Positions 33,295 through 62,370 of a stretch of DNA of 64,000 bases are shown in pieces (position 1 is the stretch's first letter; every line of letters starts with the position of its first letter). The notes beneath the pieces are model-generated. The model was not told the DNA's origin. It ran no database searches and worked only from the letters and a program-made list of their open reading frames with translations. Position numbers and translations under genes: made by a program. Origin of the DNA: an uncultured Gammaproteobacteria bacterium (GTDB lineage Bacteria; Pseudomonadota; Gammaproteobacteria; JAADHQ01); NCBI GenBank assembly GCA_947258655.1, contig CAMYJD010000006.1, forward strand, positions 62,001 through 126,000, in the 5' to 3' direction.

Positions 33295-33320
33295 CTTCAT
33301 TCTCCTTAATTAAAAGTTGA

Positions 33321-33402
33321 ATGAGCGCCGTTGATCCAGTTTAGGGGATCTGCCCGCTCCCGAGCCTGACGGATTGTACCGCTGCAGCGCCCCTCGGGAG
33401 TG
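33321..33402 (-). promoter_or_regulatory. SAH riboswitch upstream of ahcY
   Basis: Read on the minus strand, CTCCCGAG and CTCGGGAG form a perfect eight-base P1 stem around the conserved GGGGCGCTGCAGCGG and GTCAGG segments. The distal ACGGCGCTC (33331-33323) can form the pseudoknot with the GGGCGC part. These are the hallmark parts of the SAH (ahcY-motif) riboswitch known from proteobacteria. It lies 27 bases from the ahcY start. SAH binding is expected to switch ahcY on. Confidence 0.9.
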
Positions 33403-47963: not shown

Positions 47964-48881
47964 TTAATCATTAACGGCGTACAAGACGGGAGCGTCATCC
48001 TCCTTTTTTTGTTTGTCTTGTACCTCCGCTTTTTCTTCGCTGGCCATTGCCGTTTCTGCGTCAACGTCAGAACCGGAGTCCGCTTCTTCCTCGGCTTCCG
48101 GGTTTTTGTAACGCTCATGCAGGAAGCGCACGACTTCGGCGCGGTAGTGGTTATATTCAGGGACTTCTGCCAGTGCCAGTCGATCCCTGGGGCGCTCGAG
48201 GTCGACCTTGAGGATCTCACCGACCGTGGCCGCCGGGCCATTGGTCATCATGACGATGCGGTCTGACAATAAAACGGCTTCATCGACATCATGAGTAATC
48301 ATGATGACGGTGTTATTGAGTTCCGCCTGAATTTCCATTAGCGAGTCCTGCATGTGCGCGCGCGTCAGTGCATCCAGAGCTCCAAAAGGTTCATCCATCA
48401 GCATGACCTTCGGCTCCATAGACAATGCACGGGCAATACCGACACGCTGCTTCATGCCGCCTGATAATTCATCAGGGCGTTTATCCATGGCATGTGACAT
48501 ATGCACCAGTTCCAGATTATGTTCGATCCATTCCTTCATTTCTTCCTTGCTTTTCTGGTTCTTGAAAACCTGCTTGACGGCCAGTTCTACGTTTTCATAG
48601 GCTGTCATCCAGGGTAACAGGGAGTGGTTCTGGAAAACGACCGCGCGGTCCGGTCCGGGTTCGCTGACTTCCTTGCCATTGAGTATTACACCGCCTTCGG
48701 TGGCCTGGTGTAATCCGGCGATAATATTCAGCACTGTGGATTTACCGCAGCCGGAGTGGCCGATCAGGGAGATGAACTCGCCTTTTTCGATGCTCAGTTT
48801 TACCTTGTCCAGTGCCCTGAAAGGCCCGTTGGGTGTCGGGAAGTCAATCGTGACATGTGAAAGTTCCAGATATGAATCCAT
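47964..48881 (-). CDS. nrtD: Nitrate/nitrite ABC transporter ATPase (NrtC/NrtD-like)
   Basis: A 305-residue ABC ATPase. The Walker A motif is GHSGCGKSTVLN near residue 41, the signature LSGGMKQRVGIARAL near 140, and Walker B VMLMDEPFGALD near 160. The segment around GGVILNGKEVSEPGPDRAVV is typical of nitrate/taurine-type importers. After the ABC domain the last 45 residues are Glu/Asp/Ala/Lys-rich and lack the NrtA-like domain of cyanobacterial NrtC, so NrtD-like is the better name. It is the last gene of the nrtA-nrtB-ATPase operon, 17 bases after nrtB. Confidence 0.92.
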   Translation of the reverse strand: MDSYLELSHVTIDFPTPNGPFRALDKVKLSIEKGEFISLIGHSGCGKSTVLNIIAGLHQATEGGVILNGKEVSEPGPDRAVVFQNHSLLPWMTAYENVELAVKQVFKNQKSKEEMKEWIEHNLELVHMSHAMDKRPDELSGGMKQRVGIARALSMEPKVMLMDEPFGALDALTRAHMQDSLMEIQAELNNTVIMITHDVDEAVLLSDRIVMMTNGPAATVGEILKVDLERPRDRLALAEVPEYNHYRAEVVRFLHERYKNPEAEEEADSGSDVDAETAMASEEKAEVQDKQKKEDDAPVLYAVND

Positions 48882-48898
48882 ATTAGTTTCTCCTCAGA

Positions 48899-49921
48899 TT
48901 AGCGAATCACAGCACTCTTGTCCCAACTGATAGACTTCTGCAACATTAGCATCAGCCTGTCCAGCAGGAAGCCGACAAGTCCTATGGTAAATACCGCGAC
49001 CATGATTCTGGCCAGTGAGTTGGAACTCCCATTCTGGAATTCGTCCCAGACAAATTTTCCCAGGCCCGGGTTCTGAGCGAGCATTTCCGCAGCAATCAGT
49101 ACCATCCAGCCGATACCCAGCGATACGCGCAGACCAGCAAACATCATCGGGATTGATGACGGGATGACAATCTTGAATACCTTGGTTAGCCATGTCAGCC
49201 TGAGGACCTTGCTGACATTGATCAGGTCCTTGTCGATTGACGATACACCGACAGTTGTATTGATAATGGTTGGCCACAGGCAACATAGGGTAACTGTAAT
49301 GGCCGAATTCAGATATGACTTGTCGAACATCGGGTCATCACTGACATACACGGCACTGACAATCATCATTACTATCGGCAACCAGGCCAATGGAGACACA
49401 GGTTTGAATATTTGTATCAGGGGATTTAATGCCGTGTATATCAACGGACTCAGGCCGCACATTATACCGATGGGAATGGCGATTAATGATGCGATCAAGA
49501 AGCCGGTCATTACTGTGTAAATACTGGTCCATATTTGATCCAGATAGGTTGCTTTGCCTGTATAGGGCCTGATTTTAATTTCTGCATCAGGGTTCTGGGC
49601 CAGTTTTTTTGCGTTTCGTTTTTCCTGCCTTTCGTAAAAAGCAGCTTCTTTTTGCCGTTCCTCTTTGTGTTCATCCAGCAGATTGACTGCCTGTTCCCAG
49701 ACCTGGGTGGGTCCAGGTACGGCGCCAAGCGATGTTTTTATCTGGCTGGCGCCTGCGGACCACAGTAACAGGAAAATGCCGAGTGCCACTAATGGTGTGA
49801 CAATTGCTTTCAATAACTTGTTTATTTCCTCTGCCTTGTTGGGCCCGGTAAATATACGTAAAAAGGGCTCAATCAGCATGTTATGTAGGGCAGAAAAATT
49901 TTTCATAAATAATGTAGTCAT
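48899..49921 (-). CDS. nrtB: Nitrate/nitrite ABC transporter permease NrtB
   Basis: A 340-residue inner-membrane permease with six or so helices and an unusual charged insert (Glu/Lys/Arg-rich, residues about 85-125) between the first and second. The cytoplasmic EAA-like loop is SKVLRLTWLTKVFKIVIPSS near residue 240. Conserved SPLAWLPIVMMIV near 176 is typical of the nitrate and bicarbonate importers. It follows nrtA after a 72-base gap carrying a hairpin. Confidence 0.93.
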   Translation of the reverse strand: MTTLFMKNFSALHNMLIEPFLRIFTGPNKAEEINKLLKAIVTPLVALGIFLLLWSAGASQIKTSLGAVPGPTQVWEQAVNLLDEHKEERQKEAAFYERQEKRNAKKLAQNPDAEIKIRPYTGKATYLDQIWTSIYTVMTGFLIASLIAIPIGIMCGLSPLIYTALNPLIQIFKPVSPLAWLPIVMMIVSAVYVSDDPMFDKSYLNSAITVTLCCLWPTIINTTVGVSSIDKDLINVSKVLRLTWLTKVFKIVIPSSIPMMFAGLRVSLGIGWMVLIAAEMLAQNPGLGKFVWDEFQNGSSNSLARIMVAVFTIGLVGFLLDRLMLMLQKSISWDKSAVIR

Positions 49922-49958
49922 AACAATATACCAATGGGATAGATTTTGATTTATTATT

Positions 49959-49982
49959 ACCTCCCCTAATAATCGGGGAGGT
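49959..49982 (-). repeat. Hairpin between nrtA and nrtB
   Basis: Eight-base arms ACCTCCCC and GGGGAGGT around an eight-base loop, with no T run after the stem. It lies just after the nrtA stop and may protect the nrtA message or cause partial termination, keeping the binding protein more abundant than the permease (inference). Confidence 0.65.
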
Positions 49983-49993
49983 ATATAGTCTTA

Positions 49994-51397
49994 CTAGATT
50001 TTCTCCTTACCTTTCAATCCTATCTTGAACTTCTTCAGATAATCATTCGGCTTTTTACCATCATAGGTAATGTTGTCGATGAAATGCGTTTGCGGAGCAC
50101 GGAATCCGTCTTCCTTGGCAAAGTCTGGGAATTCAGAGGCCTTCAGTTTACCTTCCGCAATCAGCTCTTTCGCCGCCGTTGCATAGATGTCCGGACGATA
50201 GACCTTCTTGGCAATATCCATGTACCAGCTGTCCGGTTTCTGTTCCGAGATCTGACCCCAACGACGCATCTGGGTCAGATACCAGATAGCATCACTGTAA
50301 TACGGGTAGGTAGCGAAATAACGGAAGAACACATTGAAGTCAGGTACTGCACGTTTGTCGCCTTTTTCGTATTCGAATGTACCGGTCATACTGTTGGCGA
50401 TAACATCATAATCAGCGCCGACATACTCGGACTTGGCCAGGATCTTGACCGCTTCAGGACGATTGGCATTGTTTTTGTCATCCAGCCACTTGGCTGCACG
50501 AATCATCGCCTTGACCACGCGGATATGGGTGTTCGGGTTCTTGTCTGCCCATTTCTTACTGACGCCGAATACCTTTTCAGGGTTGTTTTTCCAGATTTCG
50601 TAGTCGGTGATGACCGGAACACCAATGCCCTTGAATACGGCCTGCTGGTTCCAGGGCTCACCTACGCAATAACCGTAGATGGTTCCCGCTTCCATGGTAG
50701 AAGGCATTTGTGGGGGAGGTGTAACCGACAGCAAAACATCGGCCTTGATTTGTCCCTTGATGTCACCCTTGTGCGGGGCATAGTAGCCGGGATTGATGCC
50801 GCCGGCAGCCAGCCAGTAACGCAGTTCATAGTTATGTGTGGATACCGGGAAAACCATGCCCATCTTGAAGGGTTTGCCGTCCGCCTTGTACTGATCCACG
50901 ACCGGCTTCAGGTAATCGGCCTTGATCGGATGAACCGGCTTGCCGCCCTTGTGCGGGACGTGCTTTTTCATTTCTTTCCAGATCTTGTTGGAAACGGTAA
51001 TGCCGTTACCGTTCAGATCCATACTGAATGCAGTAATAATGTGGTCCTGGGTACCGAAACCGATCGTAGCACCGAGCGGTTGACCGGCGAGCATATGGGC
51101 ACCATCCAGTTCGCCATCGATGACGCGGTCCAGCAATACCTTCCAGTTCGCCTGGGCTTCCAGCTTCACGTACAGGCCTTCGTCTTCGAAATAGCCTTTT
51201 TCATAGGCGATCGCGAGCGGCGCCATATCGGTTAATTTGATAAAGCCAAATTTCAGATCTTCCTTTTCTGGCTCTCCCACAGCGGCGTGGGATGCACTGG
51301 TCATCATGCCAAATCCGATGGCTGCGGCCATGGCAGTTTTCGCCAGGCTCTTACCCAGACTCAAGGGCCTTGAGTTGTCCGGTTTAAACTTCGTCAT
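49994..51397 (-). CDS. nrtA: Nitrate/nitrite-binding protein NrtA
   Basis: A 467-residue periplasmic substrate-binding protein. Residues 1-38 form a long signal peptide ending in MTSASHA; the mature domain has [20 protein letters not shown] near residue 51, [15 protein letters not shown] near 96, [12 protein letters not shown] near 245 and [20 protein letters not shown] near 361. These match the NrtA/NasF family. It is the first gene of the transport operon, driven by a sigma-54 promoter and a NasT-type leader upstream. Confidence 0.95.
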
Positions 51398-51436
51398 TGA
51401 TATCTCCTCTGTTTGGAGTAATTGATTATTAAGGTC

Positions 51437-51486
51437 AAAAAAAAGGCCCAGTCATGCATCTCCGCAAAGACATGCATGATTGGACC
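51437..51486 (-). terminator. Attenuator terminator in the nrtA leader
   Basis: On the minus strand GGTCCAATCATGCAT and ATGCATGACTGGGCC pair over fifteen positions (one mismatch, one G-U) around a 12-base loop and are followed by eight T. It lies between the promoter and nrtA, 40 bases from the start codon, so it should stop transcription unless antitermination occurs. Confidence 0.88.
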
Positions 51487-51522
51487 TCGTTATCCTGTGT
51501 CAGCGAGACCGCCGTTGGCCTC
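51482..51522 (-). promoter_or_regulatory. ANTAR (NasT) RNA target in the nrtA leader
   Basis: Two hairpins on the minus strand. P1 is GAGGCC-AACGGC-GGTCTC (51522-51505); P2 is GGAT-AACGAG-GTCC (51495-51482). Each loop is a hexamer with A at position 1 and G at position 4, the pattern recognised by ANTAR antiterminators. The right arm of P2 overlaps the left arm of the terminator by five bases, so P2 and the terminator cannot form together. Confidence 0.85.
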
Positions 51523-51566
51523 ATGTATATAGTACCCGGAGGTAGTATATTGCTGCTTGCTTATAT

Positions 51567-51582
51567 TGCAGTAATTATGCCA
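51567..51582 (-). promoter_or_regulatory. Sigma-54 promoter of nrtA
   Basis: On the minus strand TGGCAT-AATTAC-TGCA has GG and GC separated by exactly ten bases, as required for -24/-12 elements. The predicted start is near 51556, giving a leader of about 160 bases that contains P1, P2 and the terminator. Confidence 0.8.
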
Positions 51583-51685
51583 GATATGGCCTGTGATTTA
51601 TCTTGTTGTTTTGTATTAATATATAGAAATGTGCGCGATATTGTCGTGGCGCTGATGTCAATATATTGCACAATAATAGGGCTGC

Positions 51686-51702
51686 TGCACCTCAATAGTG
51701 CA
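51686..51702. promoter_or_regulatory. NtrC-like binding site upstream of nrtA
   Basis: TGCAC-CTCAATA-GTGCA matches the NtrC consensus TGCAC-N7-GTGCA perfectly. Its centre is about 138 bases upstream of the predicted nrtA transcription start. It touches the nasT 3' end region. Confidence 0.78.
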
Positions 51703-51709
51703 ATGGATT

Positions 51710-52294
51710 TCAGGAAAGCAGGTCAAATGTGGCGATAATCCCTTCGGCGATTTCCGCAATGCGTTTGTTCTTGTCCATGGCCATTTTACGCAATGCCTGG
51801 TAGGCCTCGTCCTCTGAATATTGCTTGTGCTGCATCAGTAAGCCCTTGGCCTTGTCGATGACCTTGCGTTCTTCGAGTTGTGTGCGCGTCTTGACCAGGT
51901 CCAGTTTAAGCTTCTGCACCTCGGCAAAACGCGTTACCGCTACCTGTAATATAGACTTGATCCGCTGGGCCTCAAGCGTGCCGACGATATAGGTTGCAAC
52001 ACCGTTCTTGATGGCTTGCTCTATGATCTCGTCTTCATTGGACCCGGTAAACAGTATGACCGGCACCGAAAAGCCCTGGTTGATGCTCCTGATTTGTTGC
52101 AACAGGCTACCGTCCAGTTGCTCGACTTCGATAATAATGGCATCAGGTACGTTGTTGTCTAGATGGGCATGAATATCCTGGTCGTTGGTCATGGTCTCTA
52201 TCTTGTCGACACCGATACTCGTCAATGTTGCCTTGAGTTCATCCGCAGGATCAACTTCCTGCAAAACGAGCAAAATTTCTTTAATTCCAGTCAT
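51710..52294 (-). CDS. nasT: NasT-type nitrate response antiterminator (ANTAR)
   Basis: A 194-residue protein with an N-terminal receiver-like domain and a C-terminal ANTAR domain (IDKAKGLLMQHKQYSEDEAY near residue 148, with IAEIAEGIIATFDLL at the end). The position of the receiver Asp reads IIIEVEQLD, so phosphorylation is unlikely, as in other NasT proteins. NasT binds leader RNA to prevent termination; two candidate targets lie nearby. The usual partner NasS, a nitrate-sensing NrtA relative, is not in the window. The frame extends to 52522, but the Met at 52294 fits the family and lies after a sigma-54 promoter. Confidence 0.9.
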   Translation of the reverse strand: MTGIKEILLVLQEVDPADELKATLTSIGVDKIETMTNDQDIHAHLDNNVPDAIIIEVEQLDGSLLQQIRSINQGFSVPVILFTGSNEDEIIEQAIKNGVATYIVGTLEAQRIKSILQVAVTRFAEVQKLKLDLVKTRTQLEERKVIDKAKGLLMQHKQYSEDEAYQALRKMAMDKNKRIAEIAEGIIATFDLLS

Positions 52295-52333
52295 GTCAGC
52301 TACTTGCTTGTCAGGAGATAAGCAATAAGTTAG

Positions 52334-52349
52334 GCAACTATTATGCCAA
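52334..52349 (-). promoter_or_regulatory. Sigma-54 promoter of nasT
   Basis: On the minus strand TTGGCATAATAGTTGC carries the -24 GG and -12 GC with ten bases between and the full TTGC. The predicted start is near 52322, leaving a 28-base leader without a terminator. It is the best sigma-54 match in the window. Confidence 0.85.
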
Positions 52350-52454
52350 TACGATCCGGGCCGGTAATTTGATATGCCTATAGCTGTTTCACGGATCGCA
52401 AACGGATATTGTTTGACACGGTCAAGAATGAGGCGATCCAACAATGCCGCGTGC

Positions 52455-52469
52455 GCACTGTATCTGTGC
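52455..52469. promoter_or_regulatory. NtrC-like site upstream of nasT (and glgC)
   Basis: GCAC-TGTATCT-GTGC keeps the NtrC spacing and core, with the outer bases only partly matching. Its centre is about 140 bases upstream of the nasT start and about 150 bases before glgC, so it could serve nasT or both. The rest of 52295-52613 showed no convincing glgC promoter. Confidence 0.65.
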
Positions 52470-52613
52470 AGTATCTGGCATAATAATATATGCGCGGACG
52501 AATTTGGTGCGGCTATGTCCATCAGATAAGCATAAGCCTATGGTCTATCTCCATTGAAAAGTAGGCAAGCTTATTGCATTGGCAGAACATAGATAACTAA
52601 TGGAAACCTGTTT

Positions 52614-53990: not shown

Positions 53991-54059
53991 CCGTGACCAA
54001 AGGCGGTCACGGTAATTTTAAAACTTCGGGACATTGATCCCGATCGAGGCAAAGGCGCC
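53991..54059 (+). promoter_or_regulatory. ANTAR (NasT) RNA target in the operon leader
   Basis: P1 is CCGTGACC-AAAGGC-GGTCACGG (53991-54012), an eight-base stem with hexaloop AAAGGC. P2 is GGC-AAAGGC-GCC (54048-54059) with the same loop. Both loops have A at position 1 and G at position 4. A third stem, TCGGGA-CATTGA-TCCCGA (54026-54043), lies between them. The right arm of P2 overlaps the left arm of the terminator at 54056. Confidence 0.83.
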
Positions 54060-54101
54060 CATTGTGAGTCAATTTATTGGTTCATGAGAGGGCGTTTTTT
54101 T
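54056..54101 (+). terminator. Attenuator terminator in the operon leader
   Basis: CGCCC (54056-54060) pairs with GGGCG (54090-54094) and is followed by seven T; inner TCAA/TTGG pairing can extend the stem. It lies 15 bases before the start codon of the flavoprotein gene and overlaps P2 of the ANTAR target. Confidence 0.75.
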
Positions 54102-54115
54102 ATGAGTACAGGTAC

Positions 54116-56098
54116 ATGACTGCCGAAGTATTGAAGCAAGAGCAACAGTATGCACGCAAGTCCTTCGATATTATCGTCGTTGGCATGGGCCCTGTCGGGC
54201 TGCATTTTCTCCAGAAACTGATGGGTATGGATGCCGCGCTCGGTATCGCGGTCTTCGGTGACGAGCCGTGGCAACCCTACAACCGGGTAAAACTGTCTTC
54301 ATTGTTATCAGGAGATATCAGGGAAGAATCCTTATACGAAGCCAATGCGATTCTGGATAATGCGTCCGTATATCCTTTTTATAATAACCGGATTGTATCA
54401 ATCGATCGTTATGCCCATGAGGTCGTAGACAGTCAGGGCCAGAGATATGCATATGGCAAGCTTGTGCTGGCGACAGGTTCGAGTGCGCATATACCGGTTA
54501 TAGAGGGTGTGCAGCTGAACAATGTATTCCGCTTCCGTGACCTTCATGACGTAATGTCGCTGATGGGTAGAAGCGTGATGACGCGTACAACCGTCGTTAT
54601 CGGCGGCGGCCTGCTCGGCCTGGAAGCAGCCAGGTCCATGCAGCGTTTCAATACCGATGTGCATGTCGTTGAACACGATATGTGGTTGATGTTCAAACAA
54701 CTGGATGACACAGCGGGCGCTTGTTTGCAGGAGCATATAGAGACTACCGGGATCAAGGTGCATACCAGTCAGCATGTTAAGAAAATCATCGGTGACGACA
54801 GAGTGACGGGTGTACAACTGGCAAATAATGAGACCATCGAATGCGATACGGTCATCCTTGCTACAGGTATTGTAGCCAATGTGCAACTGGCACTCGACTC
54901 TGGTTTGCACATCGGTAAAGGCATAAGGGTAAACGATAATCTGCAAACCAATGACAATGATATCTATGCTATTGGTGAATGCGCAGAGCACGATGAAAAG
55001 GTGTATGGCCTGGTCGGGCCTGGCTATGAGCAGGCTGCGGTTCTGGCGCATCATATTGAAGGCAGGAAGAGTGTTTATAAGGGTTCTGTCTCTGCGGCAA
55101 AATTGAAGGTGGTAGGCTTGCCGGTATTTAGCGCCGGGGAAGTCGAGCAGGGGGAGAGCCATGTTGATAAGTATGTCTATCAGGATCAAGAGAAAAATAT
55201 TTATCGTAAGCTTATTGTCAGAAACGGGCGTCTTCGAGGTGTCGTAGGTGTAGGCGAATGGCCTGGCATACATCGGTTTCAGGAAGCAATTGCGAAAAAG
55301 CGCCGCGTGTGGCCATGGCAGTCGGGCAGATTTATCGATGAAGGCATTATGTGGAATGATGTGCTGGCGGAAAATGTTATCGACTGGCCGGCATCTGCGA
55401 CGGTATGCAACTGCACCGGTGTAACACGTGGGCAGCTGGATCTGGCGCAAAGTAAAGGGGCAACGACAGTAGCGCAAATCGCGACGATGACATGTGCATC
55501 TACCGTTTGCGGTTCCTGTAAAAACCTGATTGGCGATTATCTTGGTAGCAGTGCTGCGCCAGAACCGGTAAAGGGCTTCCGGATGCTGTTTATAGCCTCG
55601 TTGCTAGCAACGCTCGCTGCATTGTTGTTTTTTCTGTTTCCTGTTGTCGACTATACGAGCACCTCGCAGGCAGGCTGGTCCATTGATATGTTGTGGCGGG
55701 ACAGCTTTTTCAAGCAGGTGAGCGGATTTACGGTACTCGGCGTCGCCGCCTTTATCTCCGTCATCTCAATCCGTAAGCGGGTGCAGAAGCTTTTCAAGTT
55801 ATGGGAATTTACTTCCTGGCGGATCGTGCATGTCGTGCTCGGTCTGTTGGTGCTGGGTATTCTGTTTTTACATACCGGTTTTCGTATGGGCAATAATCTC
55901 AATTTTGCCTTGATGTTGACATTCAGCAGCTTGTTGCTGGTGGGCGCAATTGCGGGTGTCGCGATTGCCTATGAGCACAGCTTGCCGAGAAGGCTGGCAA
56001 AACATGTACGTTCAATCGCTCTGTGGTCGCATATCATTTTATTATGGCCGCTGCCGGCCTTGTTGGGCTTTCATATTCTGAAAACGTATTACTTTTAA
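54116..56098 (+). CDS. NirB-like FAD/[2Fe-2S] flavoprotein fused to a bis-heme cytochrome b
   Basis: A 660-residue protein. Residues 15-400 resemble the flavin half of NAD(P)H nitrite reductase: FAD motif VGMGPVGLHF near 21, NAD(P) motif IGGGLLGLEAA near 161, and YAIGECAEHDE near 285. A BFD-like [2Fe-2S] site follows (CNCTGVTRGQL near 430, CASTVCGSC near 461). Instead of the siroheme domain there are five membrane helices from about 487. The third carries His572 and His586 and the fifth His639 and His653, each pair 14 apart, as expected for two stacked b hemes. I chose the ATG at 54116 because it lies after the leader terminator. It should carry electrons from cytoplasmic NAD(P)H across the membrane. 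The stop overlaps the next start (TAATG). Confidence 0.85.
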   Translation: MTAEVLKQEQQYARKSFDIIVVGMGPVGLHFLQKLMGMDAALGIAVFGDEPWQPYNRVKLSSLLSGDIREESLYEANAILDNASVYPFYNNRIVSIDRYAHEVVDSQGQRYAYGKLVLATGSSAHIPVIEGVQLNNVFRFRDLHDVMSLMGRSVMTRTTVVIGGGLLGLEAARSMQRFNTDVHVVEHDMWLMFKQLDDTAGACLQEHIETTGIKVHTSQHVKKIIGDDRVTGVQLANNETIECDTVILATGIVANVQLALDSGLHIGKGIRVNDNLQTNDNDIYAIGECAEHDEKVYGLVGPGYEQAAVLAHHIEGRKSVYKGSVSAAKLKVVGLPVFSAGEVEQGESHVDKYVYQDQEKNIYRKLIVRNGRLRGVVGVGEWPGIHRFQEAIAKKRRVWPWQSGRFIDEGIMWNDVLAENVIDWPASATVCNCTGVTRGQLDLAQSKGATTVAQIATMTCASTVCGSCKNLIGDYLGSSAAPEPVKGFRMLFIASLLATLAALLFFLFPVVDYTSTSQAGWSIDMLWRDSFFKQVSGFTVLGVAAFISVISIRKRVQKLFKLWEFTSWRIVHVVLGLLVLGILFLHTGFRMGNNLNFALMLTFSSLLLVGAIAGVAIAYEHSLPRRLAKHVRSIALWSHIILLWPLPALLGFHILKTYYF

Positions 56099-57489
56099 TG
56101 AAGCATTCAAAACTCTGGCTGCTATGGCTGACAATAATCGTGATATCAGGCGCATATTTAACATACCTGCTTATTGATGGTGAGGATAAAACCATGTTCA
56201 TGCCCGGTGCCATGACAGGTGGGCATCATCAGATAGGTGTTGCCTGTGAAGCCTGTCATACGGATTCATTCACGGATAAGGAAGATATGCAGAAGGCATG
56301 TGAAAGCTGTCATGGCGAGCAGCGCAAGAAACCGTTTGATTCGCATCCGCGCGCGAAATTTACCGATCCTCGTAATGCGGACCGGTTGGAAAATATTGAT
56401 GCGTTGCATTGCATCACCTGCCACGTCGAACACAAACCGGAAATAACGCAAAAGACCGGCCTGACACAGCCTGTCGATTTTTGTGTGCATTGTCATCAGG
56501 ATATAGCCGAAGAGCGCCCGAGCCATGCGGGTATGGGCTTCGAGACCTGTGCCAGTGCGGGTTGTCACAACTTTCATAATAATCGTGCCCTGTATACAGA
56601 CTTCCTGGTCAAGCATATGCATGAAGCGGATATGCTCGACAAACAGAAAATGCCGGCACGGGAATTTGCCAGTGTGCTTGAAGATATCGCGACCTATCCG
56701 CATGACCGTTATCCGGTTGGCAAGCTGGAAGTGAAAGATATGGATGCCCCTGAAGGCATGCAGGTCGCGGATGATATTGTGCATGACTGGGTCACGACGG
56801 CACATGCCGGTTCGGGTGTAAATTGTACTGCCTGTCATATGGTCAGCGGGGAAGATGATAAAAAGGTATGGGATGACCACCCCGATCATCGTGCCTGTCA
56901 GACATGTCATGATATTGAAGTGAACCAGTTTATGCAGGGCAAGCATGGCATGCGTCTGAAGTCAGGTCTTTCGCCGATGACGCCCGCTCAGGCCCGCTTG
57001 CCGATGAAGGCAGATTCACATGATACAGAACTGACCTGTAATACATGTCACCAGACACACGCCTACAAACTCGAGACTGCAGCGGTTGAGGCATGCCTCG
57101 GTTGTCATGATGACAAGCATAGCATAGCTTATAAGAATTCCTCGCATTATGAACTCTGGCAAAAGGAAAGCAAAGGTGAATTGCCTGAAGGCAGTGGCGT
57201 TTCGTGTGCCACCTGCCATATGCCGCGCACATCCATCGATGTCAGTGACTGGTTGCGACGCGTGGTCGTGCAACATAACCAGAACGCGACGCTTGTGCCG
57301 AACGAGAAGATGATTCGACCGGTCTGTCTGAACTGTCACGGCCTTGGCTTCTCGATTGATGCGCTCGCAGATGAAGACCTGGTGCAGCGTAATTTCAAGG
57401 GCAAGCCATCCAAACATATTAACAGTATCGATATGGCGGAACAGGATAATAAAAGGCATTTGGAGGAAACCGGAGGTGAAACATTCTAG
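56098..57489 (+). CDS. Membrane-anchored eleven-heme cytochrome c
   Basis: A 463-residue protein with an N-terminal signal anchor (residues about 5-25, LWLLWLTIIVISGAYLTYLL) and then a periplasmic part. Ten CxxCH sites are seen (CEACH at 50, CESCH, CITCH, CVHCH, CTACH, CQTCH, CNTCH, CLGCH, CATCH and CLNCH near 410) plus one CASAGCH at 151 with four residues between the cysteines. I do not recognise the exact family; octaheme hydroxylamine oxidoreductase-like and other multiheme nitrite reductases are the nearest ideas. The start overlaps the stop of the flavocytochrome b gene, so the two proteins are probably made together as one electron path. Confidence 0.83.
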   Translation: MKHSKLWLLWLTIIVISGAYLTYLLIDGEDKTMFMPGAMTGGHHQIGVACEACHTDSFTDKEDMQKACESCHGEQRKKPFDSHPRAKFTDPRNADRLENIDALHCITCHVEHKPEITQKTGLTQPVDFCVHCHQDIAEERPSHAGMGFETCASAGCHNFHNNRALYTDFLVKHMHEADMLDKQKMPAREFASVLEDIATYPHDRYPVGKLEVKDMDAPEGMQVADDIVHDWVTTAHAGSGVNCTACHMVSGEDDKKVWDDHPDHRACQTCHDIEVNQFMQGKHGMRLKSGLSPMTPAQARLPMKADSHDTELTCNTCHQTHAYKLETAAVEACLGCHDDKHSIAYKNSSHYELWQKESKGELPEGSGVSCATCHMPRTSIDVSDWLRRVVVQHNQNATLVPNEKMIRPVCLNCHGLGFSIDALADEDLVQRNFKGKPSKHINSIDMAEQDNKRHLEETGGETF

Positions 57490-57561
57490 AACTGACATGG
57501 CTGACAGAGCCGTAACATGAATACAACATAATTTACACATGACTAAACAAGGAGACTTGAA

Positions 57562-58152
57562 ATGAACAAAACCAAACTGGCAGTAAGCATGGGCACGGCA
57601 ATCGCGATAGCCTCTGCGACGACAACACTAAATGCAGCAGGTGACATGGTGCCGGTCAAGGCCATGGCGGATGCATTGCATCTGGTAATGGACTCTGACC
57701 GTACAATCTATACACGCAAGATTGTCAATCGTCTGGTCAAGAAAGACAAGGTCATCAAGGCCAGTGAGCATTTTGAAGATGACAAGGCGCTGGTACTACC
57801 CGCACAAATGTTCCGCTTCGGCGCCGAGCTTGTACAAAAGCGCTCGGAAAAATTACCGGATGTGAATTTCAGTTATTCACTACAGTCGCTGTGGCCGGTG
57901 AACAGGCAAAATGCACCGAAAACCAAGGCCGAAAAAGACGGCCTGAAGTTTGTCGCGGAAAACAAGGGTAAAAACTACTACACCGAGGAAACACTCGGCG
58001 GCAAGAAGTATTTTACTGCCGTTTATGCCGATACTGGTGTAGCGCCCGTCTGTGTGTCCTGTCATAACAAGCACAAGGACTCCCCGAAGCGTGACTTCAA
58101 GCTGGGCGATGTCATGGGTGGTGTGGTTATCCGTATACCGATTGACGGATAA
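57562..58152 (+). CDS. DUF3365 (Tll0287-like) heme protein
   Basis: A 196-residue exported protein with a signal peptide ending near residue 26 (ATTTLNAAG) and a C-terminal heme motif APVCVSCHNKH near residue 163. The PAS-like DUF3365 fold is suggested by GKKYFTAVYAD and the ending GDVMGGVVIRIPI. Relatives are heme-binding sensors or electron carriers of unclear function. It lies 72 bases after the multiheme gene and 14 before the cytochrome c gene, within the same operon. Confidence 0.82.
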   Translation: MNKTKLAVSMGTAIAIASATTTLNAAGDMVPVKAMADALHLVMDSDRTIYTRKIVNRLVKKDKVIKASEHFEDDKALVLPAQMFRFGAELVQKRSEKLPDVNFSYSLQSLWPVNRQNAPKTKAEKDGLKFVAENKGKNYYTEETLGGKKYFTAVYADTGVAPVCVSCHNKHKDSPKRDFKLGDVMGGVVIRIPIDG

Positions 58153-58166
58153 TCGGGCATAATGTC

Positions 58167-58556
58167 ATGCGTTTGCCTGCCATAATATTATTTCCGGTGA
58201 TGCTCAGTTGTTGCCTGTCTGCAGTGGCGGATAATGCTGCATATATACACTTCGATGGAGACGCGCTCGCGAGCGGGCGTACGCTGTGGCTGGAAAACTG
58301 CGAGGGATGTCATGGTTATGGTGTGGCAGGCGCGCCAATACCGATGCAGGCAGATGAATGGAAGCAACGGGTGACAAAAGATAGGCAGGTATTATATGGC
58401 CATGCTATCAACGGGTTTTTCGGACCTGACGACACCATGATGCCGGAAAGGGGGGGTAATCCAGAGCTCAGTGACGAGCAGGTCAAACGGGCAGTGGATT
58501 ACATGGTCGAGCTGGCGACATATTATATCAGGCAACAATCGAATCAATCTAAATGA
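58167..58556 (+). CDS. Small class I cytochrome c
   Basis: A 129-residue periplasmic protein. A signal peptide covers about residues 1-21 (ending LSAVA), the heme site is CEGCHGYG near residue 45 and the probable axial Met is in DTMMPERGG near 93. It resembles c5/c-555 type mono-heme carriers and could shuttle electrons to or from the eleven-heme protein. It is in the same operon, 14 bases after the DUF3365 gene. Confidence 0.85.
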   Translation: MRLPAIILFPVMLSCCLSAVADNAAYIHFDGDALASGRTLWLENCEGCHGYGVAGAPIPMQADEWKQRVTKDRQVLYGHAINGFFGPDDTMMPERGGNPELSDEQVKRAVDYMVELATYYIRQQSNQSK

Positions 58557-58589
58557 AATGACTAAATATCAAGTAGAGAGGAAATTAGT

Positions 58590-59003
58590 ATGACTCCGGA
58601 ACAAGTGAAACTGGTAAAAGATTCATGGGCCAAGGTGGCCCCGATCGCGGATACCGCCGCGGAACTGTTTTATGGCAAGCTGTTTGAACTGGATCCATCG
58701 GTCAAGCCGATGTTCAAGGGCGATATGACCGAACAGGGCAGGAAGTTGATGGCGATGCTGAACACAGCGGTCAATTCACTCGATAATGTCGAGGCCATAG
58801 TGCCGGCAATTCAGGCCATGGGTAAACGTCATGTCGGCTATGGTGTCAAGGATGAACATTATGATACGGTCGGCGAGGCGCTGATCTGGACCCTGGGTGC
58901 AGGTCTCAAAGACGACTTTACCGATGACACCAAGGAGGCCTGGGTTGCGGTATATACACTGGTATCGACGACCATGAAGGACGCGGCCTCTGAGGCTGCC
59001 TGA
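58590..59003 (+). CDS. Single-domain bacterial haemoglobin
   Basis: A 137-residue globin of the Vitreoscilla type. The N-terminal A helix is MTPEQVKLVKDSWAKVAPIA; the probable proximal His lies in MGKRHVGYGVKDEHY near residue 75-85; FKGDMTEQGRKLM near 45-57 is in the distal region. No reductase domain is present, so it would need a partner to act as NO dioxygenase. As the last gene of the operon it may protect against NO formed during nitrite reduction (inference). A terminator follows. Confidence 0.93.
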   Translation: MTPEQVKLVKDSWAKVAPIADTAAELFYGKLFELDPSVKPMFKGDMTEQGRKLMAMLNTAVNSLDNVEAIVPAIQAMGKRHVGYGVKDEHYDTVGEALIWTLGAGLKDDFTDDTKEAWVAVYTLVSTTMKDAASEAA

Positions 59004-59031: not shown

Positions 59032-59057
59032 AAAACAGCCGGGTGACCGGCTGTTTT
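59032..59057 (+). terminator. Terminator of the nitrogen-oxide operon
   Basis: Eleven-base perfect arms AAAACAGCCGG and CCGGCTGTTTT with the tetraloop GTGA, 28 bases after the globin stop. Confidence 0.9.
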
Positions 59058-59427: not shown

Positions 59428-59979
59428 ATGGACATGGACAATAAACAACAACTGGATGATCTGCTGGCCAGGACCGCGCTCGGGGACCAGTCTGCCTTTG
59501 ACCTGCTCTATCAACATACATCGTCTCTGTTGTACGCGATCGCGTTCAAAATCCTCAAAAAAACCGAATATGCGGAAGAAGCGCTGCAGGAAGCCTATGT
59601 CAGGATCTGGCATAATGCCGGCGAATATAATAGCGAAAAGGGCGCTGTGCTGACATGGATGGGGAGTATTGTGCGCTATCGTTGCCTCGATATGCTCAGA
59701 AAAGTGAAGCCGGAGGAATCCATTCATGGCAAATCCGAGTATATCATTATGGAAGATGAGGATCCCGGGCCGCTCGAACAGGCATTGATGGCCGGTGATG
59801 CGCGAGCCCTGATGGACTGCATTGAGTCACTACAAGAGAAACAACGTAGAAGCATACTGATGGCTTTTTATGAAGGTTTGACCCATGAGCAGTTATCGCG
59901 CTACCTCAGCGTGCCGCTGGGTACGGTGAAGAGCTGGGTGCGGCGCGGGCTCGATAAAATTAGGGAGTGCCTCGGTTAA
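59428..59979 (+). CDS. ECF RNA polymerase sigma factor (SigK-like)
   Basis: A 183-residue sigma-70 family factor. Region 2 includes YAEEALQEAYVRIWHNAGEYN (quoted in part) near residue 45-65, and region 4 THEQLSRYLSVPLGTVKSWV near 150 with RRGLDKIRE. It is linked by a TAATG overlap to an RskA-like anti-sigma gene, so it is probably held inactive until a signal arrives. The likely target is the DUF4331 gene downstream, whose upstream region has a candidate ECF promoter. Confidence 0.93.
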   Translation: MDMDNKQQLDDLLARTALGDQSAFDLLYQHTSSLLYAIAFKILKKTEYAEEALQEAYVRIWHNAGEYNSEKGAVLTWMGSIVRYRCLDMLRKVKPEESIHGKSEYIIMEDEDPGPLEQALMAGDARALMDCIESLQEKQRRSILMAFYEGLTHEQLSRYLSVPLGTVKSWVRRGLDKIRECLG

Positions 59980-60665
59980 TGGTCAATGGTGTGGATGACA
60001 ATCGCTATGATCTGGCAGCCGAGTATGTGCTTGGCACATTGCGCGGTAATGCGCGTGTGCAATTCGAGCGTCTGTTACGTGAAGACGCCGAAATGCGTAA
60101 ACGTGTACACGAATGGGAGTCGAGATTGTTTGTGCTCAGTGACGGAATCGAGCCATTAAAACCGCATGCGCGCGTGTGGAAACGTATCCAGGCACGCGTA
60201 GCACCCCGAAGTGATATGCACAAGAGCCGCATTGGCTGGTGGCGGGCGTGGGCCCTGGCTGCCAGTGTCATGCTGGTTGTGCTCAGTGTCACAACCCTGC
60301 AGTTGCTGCAGCCCGAGGAAGGCTCGGCGCCTGCTGTTGTTGTTCTTAGCGATGAATCCTCCCGTGCCGGCTGGGTAGTGCACGCAGACTATGATAACAA
60401 ACAGCTTATTGCCCAGGCCCTGCAGATCAATGATCCGGGTGAGGGCAAGGCCTTCGAGCTGTGGATGCTGCCCAAGGACGAACCACCGAGATCGCTGGGA
60501 TTGTTGCCATTACAGGGTAAGCAGCACCTGGGCTTGAGTGCAGACAAACTGGCCGTGTTGCAGCGATCGGGCGCATTGGCTGTCAGTGTGGAACCGGCAG
60601 GTGGATCGCCTACCGGCTTGCCTACAGGTCCGGTCCTGTATCAGGGTAAAATATTGGAAATCTAG
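59979..60665 (+). CDS. RskA-family anti-sigma factor
   Basis: A 228-residue membrane protein. The N-terminal cytoplasmic part has the typical RYDLAAEYVLGTLRGNAR near residue 7 and VWKRIQARV near 66. One membrane helix lies at about 87-107 (AWALAASVMLVVLSVTTLQL), followed by a periplasmic RskA domain with FELWMLPKDEPPRSLGLLP. I started at the ATG at 59979, within the sigma stop overlap. It should bind the preceding sigma factor. Confidence 0.9.
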   Translation: MVNGVDDNRYDLAAEYVLGTLRGNARVQFERLLREDAEMRKRVHEWESRLFVLSDGIEPLKPHARVWKRIQARVAPRSDMHKSRIGWWRAWALAASVMLVVLSVTTLQLLQPEEGSAPAVVVLSDESSRAGWVVHADYDNKQLIAQALQINDPGEGKAFELWMLPKDEPPRSLGLLPLQGKQHLGLSADKLAVLQRSGALAVSVEPAGGSPTGLPTGPVLYQGKILEI

Positions 60666-60755
60666 CCTTATCACGTACTTGCGCTTGCCTGCAACAGTAT
60701 CTGCCGGATCGCCTGTCCGTGCTCCTGCCTGATTCGAAAAAAATAATAAATTTTT

Positions 60756-60783
60756 GCATCCGCCTTGCGTGCACGCACGTATA
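60756..60783 (+). promoter_or_regulatory. Candidate ECF sigma promoter of the DUF4331 gene
   Basis: GCATCC (60756-60761) and CGTATA (60778-60783) are 16 bases apart; GCATCC is close to the CCATCC -35 box of SigK-type factors. The spacer contains a perfect 12-base palindrome TGCGTGCACGCA (60766-60777). Predicted start near 60790, 30 bases before the ATG. Confidence 0.5.
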
Positions 60784-60819
60784 TATCCTCGAACCGATTA
60801 ATTGCTCGAGGAGAAGAGG

Positions 60820-62370
60820 ATGAAAAAACGTATTTTACATTGCGCTATGGCGATGGCAATGACAGCAGGCACAGGGATGTTAAGTATATCCCAGAGCTAT
60901 GCATCCAGTCATCGTGAGGCACCCAACATAACACGTATGCCGAAAGTGGACTCCACTGACTTTTATATGTTTAATAGCTACGAGTCCGGACGTGAAGGCT
61001 TCGTTACCCTGTTAGCCAATTATGTGCCATTGCAGGATCCGCAGGGTGGACCCAATTATTTTTCCATGGATCCATCCGCGCTATATGAAATCCATATCGA
61101 TAATGATGGCGATGCCAAGGAGGATCTGACCTTCCAGTTCAGTTTCAGAAACAGGCTGAGTAATAACGGCAATGGTATCAGTCTCAATATTGGGCCTGAT
61201 AGCGACAAGCAAACTGTGGCGATCCCGTTAAAGCATGCCGGCGGGATCGGTGTCAGCGCCGGAACAGCCAATCTCGGTTTTCTGGAAACTTATACCGTGA
61301 CCATGGTGAAGGGTGACAGGAGAAAGGGAACGAAACGAAGAATTTCCCATGCCGAAACGGGTGCGCGAAGATTTACCAAGCCGTATGACTATGTCGGTGA
61401 GAAGACATTTGGTGATGGAGCTGCCTATGAAAGCTATGCCAGTCAGTATATTAATCCGATCAGTGTGCCGGGTTGCGGTGAAGGCAAGGTATTTGTGGGG
61501 CAGCGCAAGGAGTCTTTTGTAGTCAATCTGGGTGAGACATTTGATCTGGTCAATTATGCGCCTATTGATGGATTGATAGACCAGAGTAAGGACAATGATG
61601 ATCTAAGAAACAAGAATATCACAACCATCGCGCTGGAATTGCCTGTGGACTGCCTGACCTCGGGATCTGATAGCATCATTGGCGGCTGGACATCAGCGAG
61701 TTTACGCCAGACGCGTGTTCTCAATCGGCGCGCAAGCTTCGCGAAACCCGAGTTCAATAAGGGTGCATTTACACAGGTATCCAGGCTCGGCAGCCCGTTG
61801 GTCAATGAACTGGTCATTGGTCTGAAGGACAAGGATCGCTTCAGTGTCAGTGAGCCAAAGGGTGACGGTCAGTTCGCAACCTATGTCACCCATCCCACCC
61901 TGCCGGCCTTGCTTGATATTCTGTTCAGGGAAGCCGTTGGTAGCACAGATAATATTGCGCCGACCAATTTTCCGCGCAATGACTTGATTGCAGCCTTTTT
62001 GACAGGTATCGCCGGTGTAAACCAGCCGAAAGCGGTAGTGCCCTCCGAAATGCTGCGCCTGAATACTGCAATCGGGGCCGTGCCTGCGAGCCAGCAGAGT
62101 ACATTTGGTGTGGCCGGTGATGACCTGGCCGGTTTCCCGAATGGACGCCGTCCTGGTGACGATGTCGTTGATATCGCCCTGCGGGTGGTGATGGGACGAT
62201 TATGTCACCCGGTGCCGGTCAATGGTGTGGATACCGCGCTCGGTTTCTGTGAGCCGGGGCAGGCCATCGTCGGTACAGTTCCATTCACGGATGGAGCGCC
62301 TGTCAGTGCAGCAGATTTTAACGAGCAATTCCCATATCTACTGACACCAATTGCCGGATCACCCAATTAA
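60820..62370 (+). CDS. Secreted DUF4331 protein
   Basis: A 516-residue exported protein. The signal peptide covers about residues 1-30 (ending SQSYA before SSHREAP). SSHREAPNITRMPKVDSTDFYMF is the hallmark start of DUF4331 (quoted in part), and HPTLPALLDILFREAVG near 365 and NGRRPGDDVVDIALRVVMG near 445 are typical. Cys residues near 215, 280 and 465-475 could form disulfides. The function is unknown; DUF4331 genes are often found with ECF sigma/anti-sigma pairs. I chose the ATG at 60820, which follows GAGGAGAAGAGG. Confidence 0.9.
   Translation: MKKRILHCAMAMAMTAGTGMLSISQSYASSHREAPNITRMPKVDSTDFYMFNSYESGREGFVTLLANYVPLQDPQGGPNYFSMDPSALYEIHIDNDGDAKEDLTFQFSFRNRLSNNGNGISLNIGPDSDKQTVAIPLKHAGGIGVSAGTANLGFLETYTVTMVKGDRRKGTKRRISHAETGARRFTKPYDYVGEKTFGDGAAYESYASQYINPISVPGCGEGKVFVGQRKESFVVNLGETFDLVNYAPIDGLIDQSKDNDDLRNKNITTIALELPVDCLTSGSDSIIGGWTSASLRQTRVLNRRASFAKPEFNKGAFTQVSRLGSPLVNELVIGLKDKDRFSVSEPKGDGQFATYVTHPTLPALLDILFREAVGSTDNIAPTNFPRNDLIAAFLTGIAGVNQPKAVVPSEMLRLNTAIGAVPASQQSTFGVAGDDLAGFPNGRRPGDDVVDIALRVVMGRLCHPVPVNGVDTALGFCEPGQAIVGTVPFTDGAPVSAADFNEQFPYLLTPIAGSPN

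Follow-up and report, generated by a model that had tools for sequence, protein, structure and literature searches.

A putatively NasT-controlled operon joins a NirB-like flavocytochrome b to an eleven-heme cytochrome c in an uncultured gammaproteobacterium

Nitric oxide (NO) is a possible by-product of nitrate assimilation, and in Bradyrhizobium the NasT-linked narK-bjgb-flp-nasC operon furnishes a single-domain globin and an FAD protein that protect against such NO (PMC4724949). Two further described groups share individual components with the system considered here, namely the DUF3365 proteins, which are c-heme Cache domains whose signalling-fused members bind NO and whose stand-alone members appear to be redox proteins (PMC12889525), and the Uet undecaheme porin-cytochrome complex of Tenderiales/Gallionella, a porin complex of the outer membrane that includes several triheme cytochromes (PMC10734462). 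Here we describe a five-gene operon from an uncultured Gammaproteobacteria bacterium, lying in a 64,000-nucleotide stretch (the window: positions 62,001 to 126,000 of contig CAMYJD010000006.1, assembly GCA_947258655.1), which encodes a flavocytochrome b (FcyB), an eleven-heme cytochrome c (Cyt11), a DUF3365 protein, a monoheme cytochrome c and a globin (Table 1). Like its Bradyrhizobium counterpart, it unites a single-domain globin and an NAD(P)H-FAD protein in a nitrate-assimilation operon with NasT-type control; given that NO detoxification has been proposed for the Bradyrhizobium operon, which is under NasS-NasT, the role of the present one may by analogy be comparable. However, the Bradyrhizobium Flp is described as cytoplasmic, its operon has no cytochrome b, eleven-heme cytochrome c or Cache-heme protein, and NasC is encoded inside that operon (PMC4724949), whereas here NasA and NirBD are encoded elsewhere in the genome. 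The likeness to Uet lies in the count of eleven hemes in one cytochrome, and the present operon has no porin gene.

The stop of FcyB and the start of Cyt11 overlap in a TAATG, and the DUF3365, monoheme cytochrome c and globin genes all score above their Pfam cut-offs. All five genes, and the leader and end terminators that bound them, were recovered where an earlier sequence-only reading of this DNA had placed them. Scanning 84,980 species genomes yielded 472 candidate stretches, the best 80 of which were inspected; these come from Gamma-, Beta- and Alphaproteobacteria, Poribacteria, Verrucomicrobia and Myxococcota, and 63 retain enough flank for their gene content to be counted. FcyB and DUF3365 stand beside Cyt11 in 63/63 loci, while the globin occurs in 52, the monoheme cytochrome c in 35, NrtA in 31 and NasT in 28. 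The operon is real, and by this constancy its arrangement is not a product of chance; the conserved core is FcyB-Cyt11-DUF3365, the other genes being variable; the co-occurrence of FcyB and Cyt11 that the sequence-only reading had put forward as its first check is thus complete in these loci. Divergence is correlated within this core (r 0.49-0.63) and not against NrtA (r -0.03 to 0.11). In a search of 143 genomes (the source genome and its relatives), the FcyB membrane domain was detected in 15, comprising 13 operon carriers and two with distant cytochrome b relatives. No operon relatives were found on viral contigs or on plasmids. A receiver protein, a NirD-like Rieske protein and a porin-like protein recur as neighbors in a few loci; clusters of unknown neighbor genes were discarded, as the large ones were mainly antisense artefacts. 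The system is widespread but apparently undescribed: as the sequence-only reading had surmised, no description of a matching system was found in the open-licence papers searched, and neither Pfam nor NCBIfam has such a unit.

The front of FcyB comprises Pyr_redox_2, Rubredoxin_C and BFD [2Fe-2S] domains, all exceeding Pfam cut-offs, with a ferredoxin-reductase fold preceding the membrane domain in the predicted structure. Residues 19-480 align to positions 1-469 of the 794 in the NirB profile, covering the FAD, NADH and BFD domains that the two proteins have in common. FcyB is nevertheless ruled out as the large subunit of a nitrite reductase, as the siroheme/4Fe-4S domain PF01077 is not matched in a Pfam search and the TIGR02374 (NirB) score of 400 bits falls under the cut-off of 578.35; a true NirB is also present in the genome. 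Where NirB carries its siroheme half, FcyB has five predicted membrane helices (488-507, 530-552, 565-587, 594-618 and 625-659). The third and fifth of these bear four histidines, His572, His586, His639 and His653, with the spacing of a two-heme cytochrome b. These histidines and the BFD cysteines (Cys431, 433, 465 and 468) are invariant in an alignment of 37 FcyB relatives, a pattern characteristic of proteins that bind one [2Fe-2S] cluster and a pair of b hemes. By its sequence, then, FcyB is the front of NirB shorn of the siroheme half, with a putative diheme cytochrome b in its place, and on account of that front end it may be mislabelled as a nitrite reductase by annotation. Searches with the membrane domain returned no Pfam match and nothing useful from the PDB by sequence. 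Stand-alone distant relatives of this domain adjoin a ten-heme cytochrome with an FHA domain in one locus (L034, 663-3303) and a protein with 21 CXXCH motifs in another (L035, 9316-12031), which suggests a wider family pairing cytochrome b with multiheme cytochromes c.

Cyt11 has ten CXXCH motifs and one CX4CH motif, all retained in 51/51 aligned relatives, and the count of eleven hemes given by the sequence-only reading holds if the CX4CH site is included. An N-terminal helix spans residues 4-27. Outside the motifs exactly 11 histidines are invariant (H43, 83, 112, 143, 160, 236, 283, 321, 341, 350 and 393), and by this count there would be enough for bis-His ligation of all 11 hemes. The C-terminal half matches HAO, ONR and NrfA by profile, weakly and over short stretches (E 3e-9 to 1e-6), and a fold search found HAO (6t5e; E 1e-3, probability 1.0), again weakly, with a TM-score of about 0.27. 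Set against the NrfA, octaheme nitrite reductase and HAO proteins, which its C-terminal hemes thus resemble weakly, Cyt11 differs in its eleven hemes, its N-terminal membrane anchor, the want of a CXXCK heme motif (0 in 51/51 sequences) and a PF02335 (NrfA) score of 17.5 bits, under the gathering cut-off of 24.1. The missing CXXCK and the sub-threshold score both count against Cyt11 as an ammonia-forming nitrite reductase of the NrfA/ONR type. An attempt to map a catalytic heme through the ONR/NrfA alignments was dropped, since hemes 6-7 and 10-11 of Cyt11 align to the same NrfA/ONR heme pair; heme 9 aligns weakly to the CXXCK heme of these enzymes, in an ambiguous register, and one heme of Cyt11 may yet be open for catalysis. 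The missing CXXCK together with the match between 11 extra invariant histidines and 11 hemes favors a wire or conduit over a nitrite reductase.

The third core protein belongs with the DUF3365/Tll0287 sCache_heme proteins (PF11845, 70.7 bits against a cut-off of 24.1), and shares with their stand-alone members the exported Cache domain with a CXXCH motif and no further domains (PMC12889525). Across 78 sequences Cys164, Cys167 and His168 are invariant, and no cysteine lies outside the CXXCH in any of them. This rules out the Cys/His-ligated stand-alone type and separates the operon proteins from Tll0287 and the P. putida protein, which have an axial cysteine (PMC12889525). They further differ from other sCache_heme proteins in always standing beside FcyB-Cyt11 in the loci examined. 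A PDB sequence search with the DUF3365 protein gave no match. The globin matches the N-terminal domain of the NO-inducible flavohemoprotein family.

The ANTAR rule calls for two hexaloop hairpins whose loops have A as the first and G as the fourth base (PMC3369931). The FcyB leader has precisely such a pair of A1/G4 hexaloops, the second overlapping the terminator; in a sibling genome the counterpart of the first hairpin has the loop AATGGA. Across the 63 FcyB leaders, the dual hairpin with overlapping terminator occurs in 8 as against 0.0 expected from dinucleotide shuffles, a terminator accompanied by an A..G hexaloop hairpin in 20 (0.1 expected from such shuffles), and terminator-like sites in 30 (1.7 expected). 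The NrtA leader of the same window (51398-51700, reverse strand) likewise has an ANTAR double hairpin, with loops AACGGC and AACGAG, and an overlapping terminator. Eight other upstream regions tested in the genome do not have the layout, and an Rfam search of the operon leader found no family. As the double hairpin and terminator recur in the same design ahead of NrtA, control of the operon by NasT, as a nitrate/nitrite switch, is well supported by leader architecture, in agreement with the sequence-only reading. The NasT gene is divergent from the operon, with glgC between them, and its true start is probably downstream of the called one, near residue 77; no NasS gene was recognised beside it in the window.

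The sequence-only reading had further envisaged conversion of nitrite to ammonium without siroheme, and had raised the possibility that carriers lack nirBD. This we reject, as NirBD and NasA are present in the genome and co-occur with the operon, and Cyt11 has no CXXCK. The full siroheme nitrite reductase that the earlier proposal had named as one part of the evidence that would refute it is encoded on another contig, where NasA, a full-length NirB (963 bits, cut-off 578), NirD and NarK were found. Among the source genome and its relatives, full NirB is commoner in carriers (10/13) than in non-carriers (52/130; p=0.016), and the wider scan found it in 39/50 carriers across phyla. Of the 14 carriers without NirB (11 of these 50 and 3 of the relatives), 13 have another siroheme nitrite/sulfite reductase domain, though some of these may be sulfite reductases. 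A NasA-type reductase is present in 42/52 carriers tested, and NrfA exceeds its cut-off in 1/18. The operon therefore accompanies the ordinary nitrite reductase pathway and does not replace it. Separately, on contig C45 of the source genome (L004, 7721-11778), a molybdopterin reductase of 726 amino acids adjoins nirBD, with a 620-amino-acid partner in which 4Fe-4S ferredoxin domains are fused to a DmsC membrane anchor; from its domains the pair looks like a quinol-linked assimilatory-type nitrate reductase besides NasA, and similar reductases occur in other carriers.

On our tentative reading, credible without being probable, nitrate or nitrite induces the operon, whose products form an NADH:cytochrome c chain across the membrane; this chain would serve assimilatory nitrate reduction as an accessory, most likely by managing reactive nitrogen. 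In the presence of nitrate or nitrite, binding of NasT to the leader double hairpin would release expression. The cytoplasmic FAD domain of FcyB would then oxidise NADH, and the electrons would move through the BFD [2Fe-2S] cluster and then the stacked pair of b hemes to Cyt11, anchored in the inner membrane, which may relay them to the DUF3365 Cache-heme protein and, in loci that encode it, to the small cytochrome c. The reactive nitrogen to be handled would be NO, excess nitrite and hydroxylamine made while NasA and NirBD run: the cytoplasmic globin would remove NO, perhaps being re-reduced by FcyB, and the periplasmic hemes would supply electrons to an NO or nitrite sink. The path from NADH through FAD, [2Fe-2S] and two b hemes to c hemes is thus a plausible part of the sequence-only reading, whereas its end point in nitrite is not supported. 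Each electron-transfer step, with its direction and substrate, is something we infer from sequence; confidence is high for the operon architecture and moderate for the reactive-nitrogen purpose.

Several observations weigh against this proposal. The globin is missing in 11/63 loci, and NO dioxygenation is therefore not a constant part of the system; both its reduction by FcyB and a reaction of operon hemes with NO are again steps that we infer. For a stand-alone DUF3365 protein, published tests showed weak binding of NO (PMC12889525); that protein is Cys/His-ligated, and since the operon subfamily lacks this cysteine ligand its behavior is not transferable. One core carrier, 96% complete (G013, locus L031), has neither a NasA nor a NirB match, and the operon may there have a role apart from nitrate assimilation; another genome (G140) has NirB and no NasA match. 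The link to nitrate assimilation is thus not absolute. Finally, a genome of the same genus (G001) has NasA and NirB and no FcyB match, and the system is therefore dispensable.

Other explanations place the chemistry or the direction of electron flow differently. It is unlikely that Cyt11 itself reduces nitrite, NO or hydroxylamine in the periplasm, yielding ammonium from NADH electrons as a backup or supplement to NirBD: the nitrate/nitrite-controlled leader would suit such an enzyme, as would the consistency with which profile and fold searches match it, if weakly, to NrfA, octaheme nitrite reductase and HAO, but the absent CXXCK, the 11 histidines that can close 11 hemes, the low NrfA and TM-scores and the retention of siroheme reductases by carriers all speak against it. 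If Cyt11 is instead a wire with all-bis-His hemes, the chain could act as a redox valve, passing NADH electrons to periplasmic cytochrome c and on to a terminal oxidase so as to balance NADH demand at the nitrate switch, with the monoheme cytochrome c and the Cache-heme protein as redox partners; stand-alone Cache-heme proteins do appear to be redox proteins (PMC12889525). We consider this improbable, since nitrate assimilation uses up NADH, making its nitrate-induced waste odd, and since the globin would be left unexplained in the loci that have it.

Electrons might also be imported, with Cyt11 gathering them from periplasmic cytochromes or quinol and FcyB feeding cytoplasmic NasA or NirBD, thereby sparing NADH in lithotrophs. 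Many carriers are named in their records as sulfur or iron oxidisers, the source genome has a Dsr-type siroheme pair and a DmsC-anchored assimilatory-type reductase, and the BFD domain of FcyB resembles the electron-transfer part of NirB. Yet electrons drawn inward would pass from the positive face of the membrane to the negative one, uphill against its potential, FcyB retains a complete FAD/NADH domain, the heterotrophs Marinobacter and Alcanivorax are among the carriers and some genomes have NirB and NasA without FcyB, which makes import quite improbable. Still less to be expected is a sensing or signalling relay, with the Cache-heme protein as the reporter of periplasmic NO or redox state and FcyB-Cyt11 confined to keeping its heme reduced. 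DUF3365 is as constant as FcyB, and signalling Cache-heme domains do bind NO (PMC12889525); however, the operon protein stands alone and lacks domains of the kinase, HAMP and cyclase types, no gene of the operon encodes a dedicated receptor, and an eleven-heme protein is a costly reductant for a sensor.

Further features of the window include an S-adenosylhomocysteine (SAH) riboswitch on the reverse strand at 33316-33401 (60.1 bits, gathering 37). Directly downstream of the operon, at 59428-62370, lie genes for a sigma factor, an RskA-type anti-sigma factor and a DUF4331 protein, which are not beside the operon in the sibling genome (L022).

Table 1. Features of the operon and its nitrate-related neighborhood (window coordinates)
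Feature	Position	Strand	Basis
NrtABC-type nitrate ABC transporter (ATPase 47964-48881, permease 48899-49921, binding protein 49994-51397)	47964..51397	-	Pfam
NasT-type response regulator, ANTAR RNA-binding domain	51710..52522	-	Pfam ANTAR 2e-20, Response_reg
Putative ANTAR (NasT) hairpin P1, 8 bp stem, loop AAAGGC	53991..54012	+	folds in isolation, loop rule
Putative ANTAR hairpin P2, loop AAAGGC, overlaps terminator 5' arm	54048..54059	+	folding, leader survey
Leader intrinsic terminator, then T run	54054..54096	+	folding, leader survey
FcyB, NADH/FAD oxidoreductase and BFD [2Fe-2S] fused to predicted five-helix diheme cytochrome b	54116..56098	+	Pfam, 37-sequence alignment, predicted helices, fold
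Cyt11, membrane-anchored eleven-heme cytochrome c	56098..57489	+	heme motifs in 51/51 relatives, invariant His, N-terminal helix, weak HAO/NrfA/ONR match
DUF3365/Tll0287-like stand-alone Cache-heme, exported monoheme protein	57562..58152	+	Pfam PF11845, 70.7 bits
Monoheme cytochrome c, Cytochrome_CBB3 type, optional	58167..58556	+	Pfam
Single-domain globin, no apparent export signal	58590..59003	+	Pfam PF00042, 66 bits
Operon end terminator, 11 bp stem, T tail	59032..59057	+	sequence

More broadly, FcyB-Cyt11-DUF3365 could represent a class of membrane oxidoreductase not recognised before, whose NirB-type NADH module would push electrons along two b and eleven c hemes to reduce NO, nitrite or hydroxylamine in the periplasm; it would form a second, spatially separate arm of nitrate assimilation in possibly hundreds of species. 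This we regard as rather doubtful. If our reading of a nitrate-induced chain that manages reactive nitrogen is true, assimilatory nitrate reduction, which is usually deemed purely cytoplasmic, would have a widespread and co-regulated periplasmic electron-transfer arm. With its three-gene core, its RNA switch and hosts that can be cultured, Marinobacter and Alcanivorax among them, the operon would then offer a way to approach the handling of nitrosative stress in nitrate-assimilating cells.

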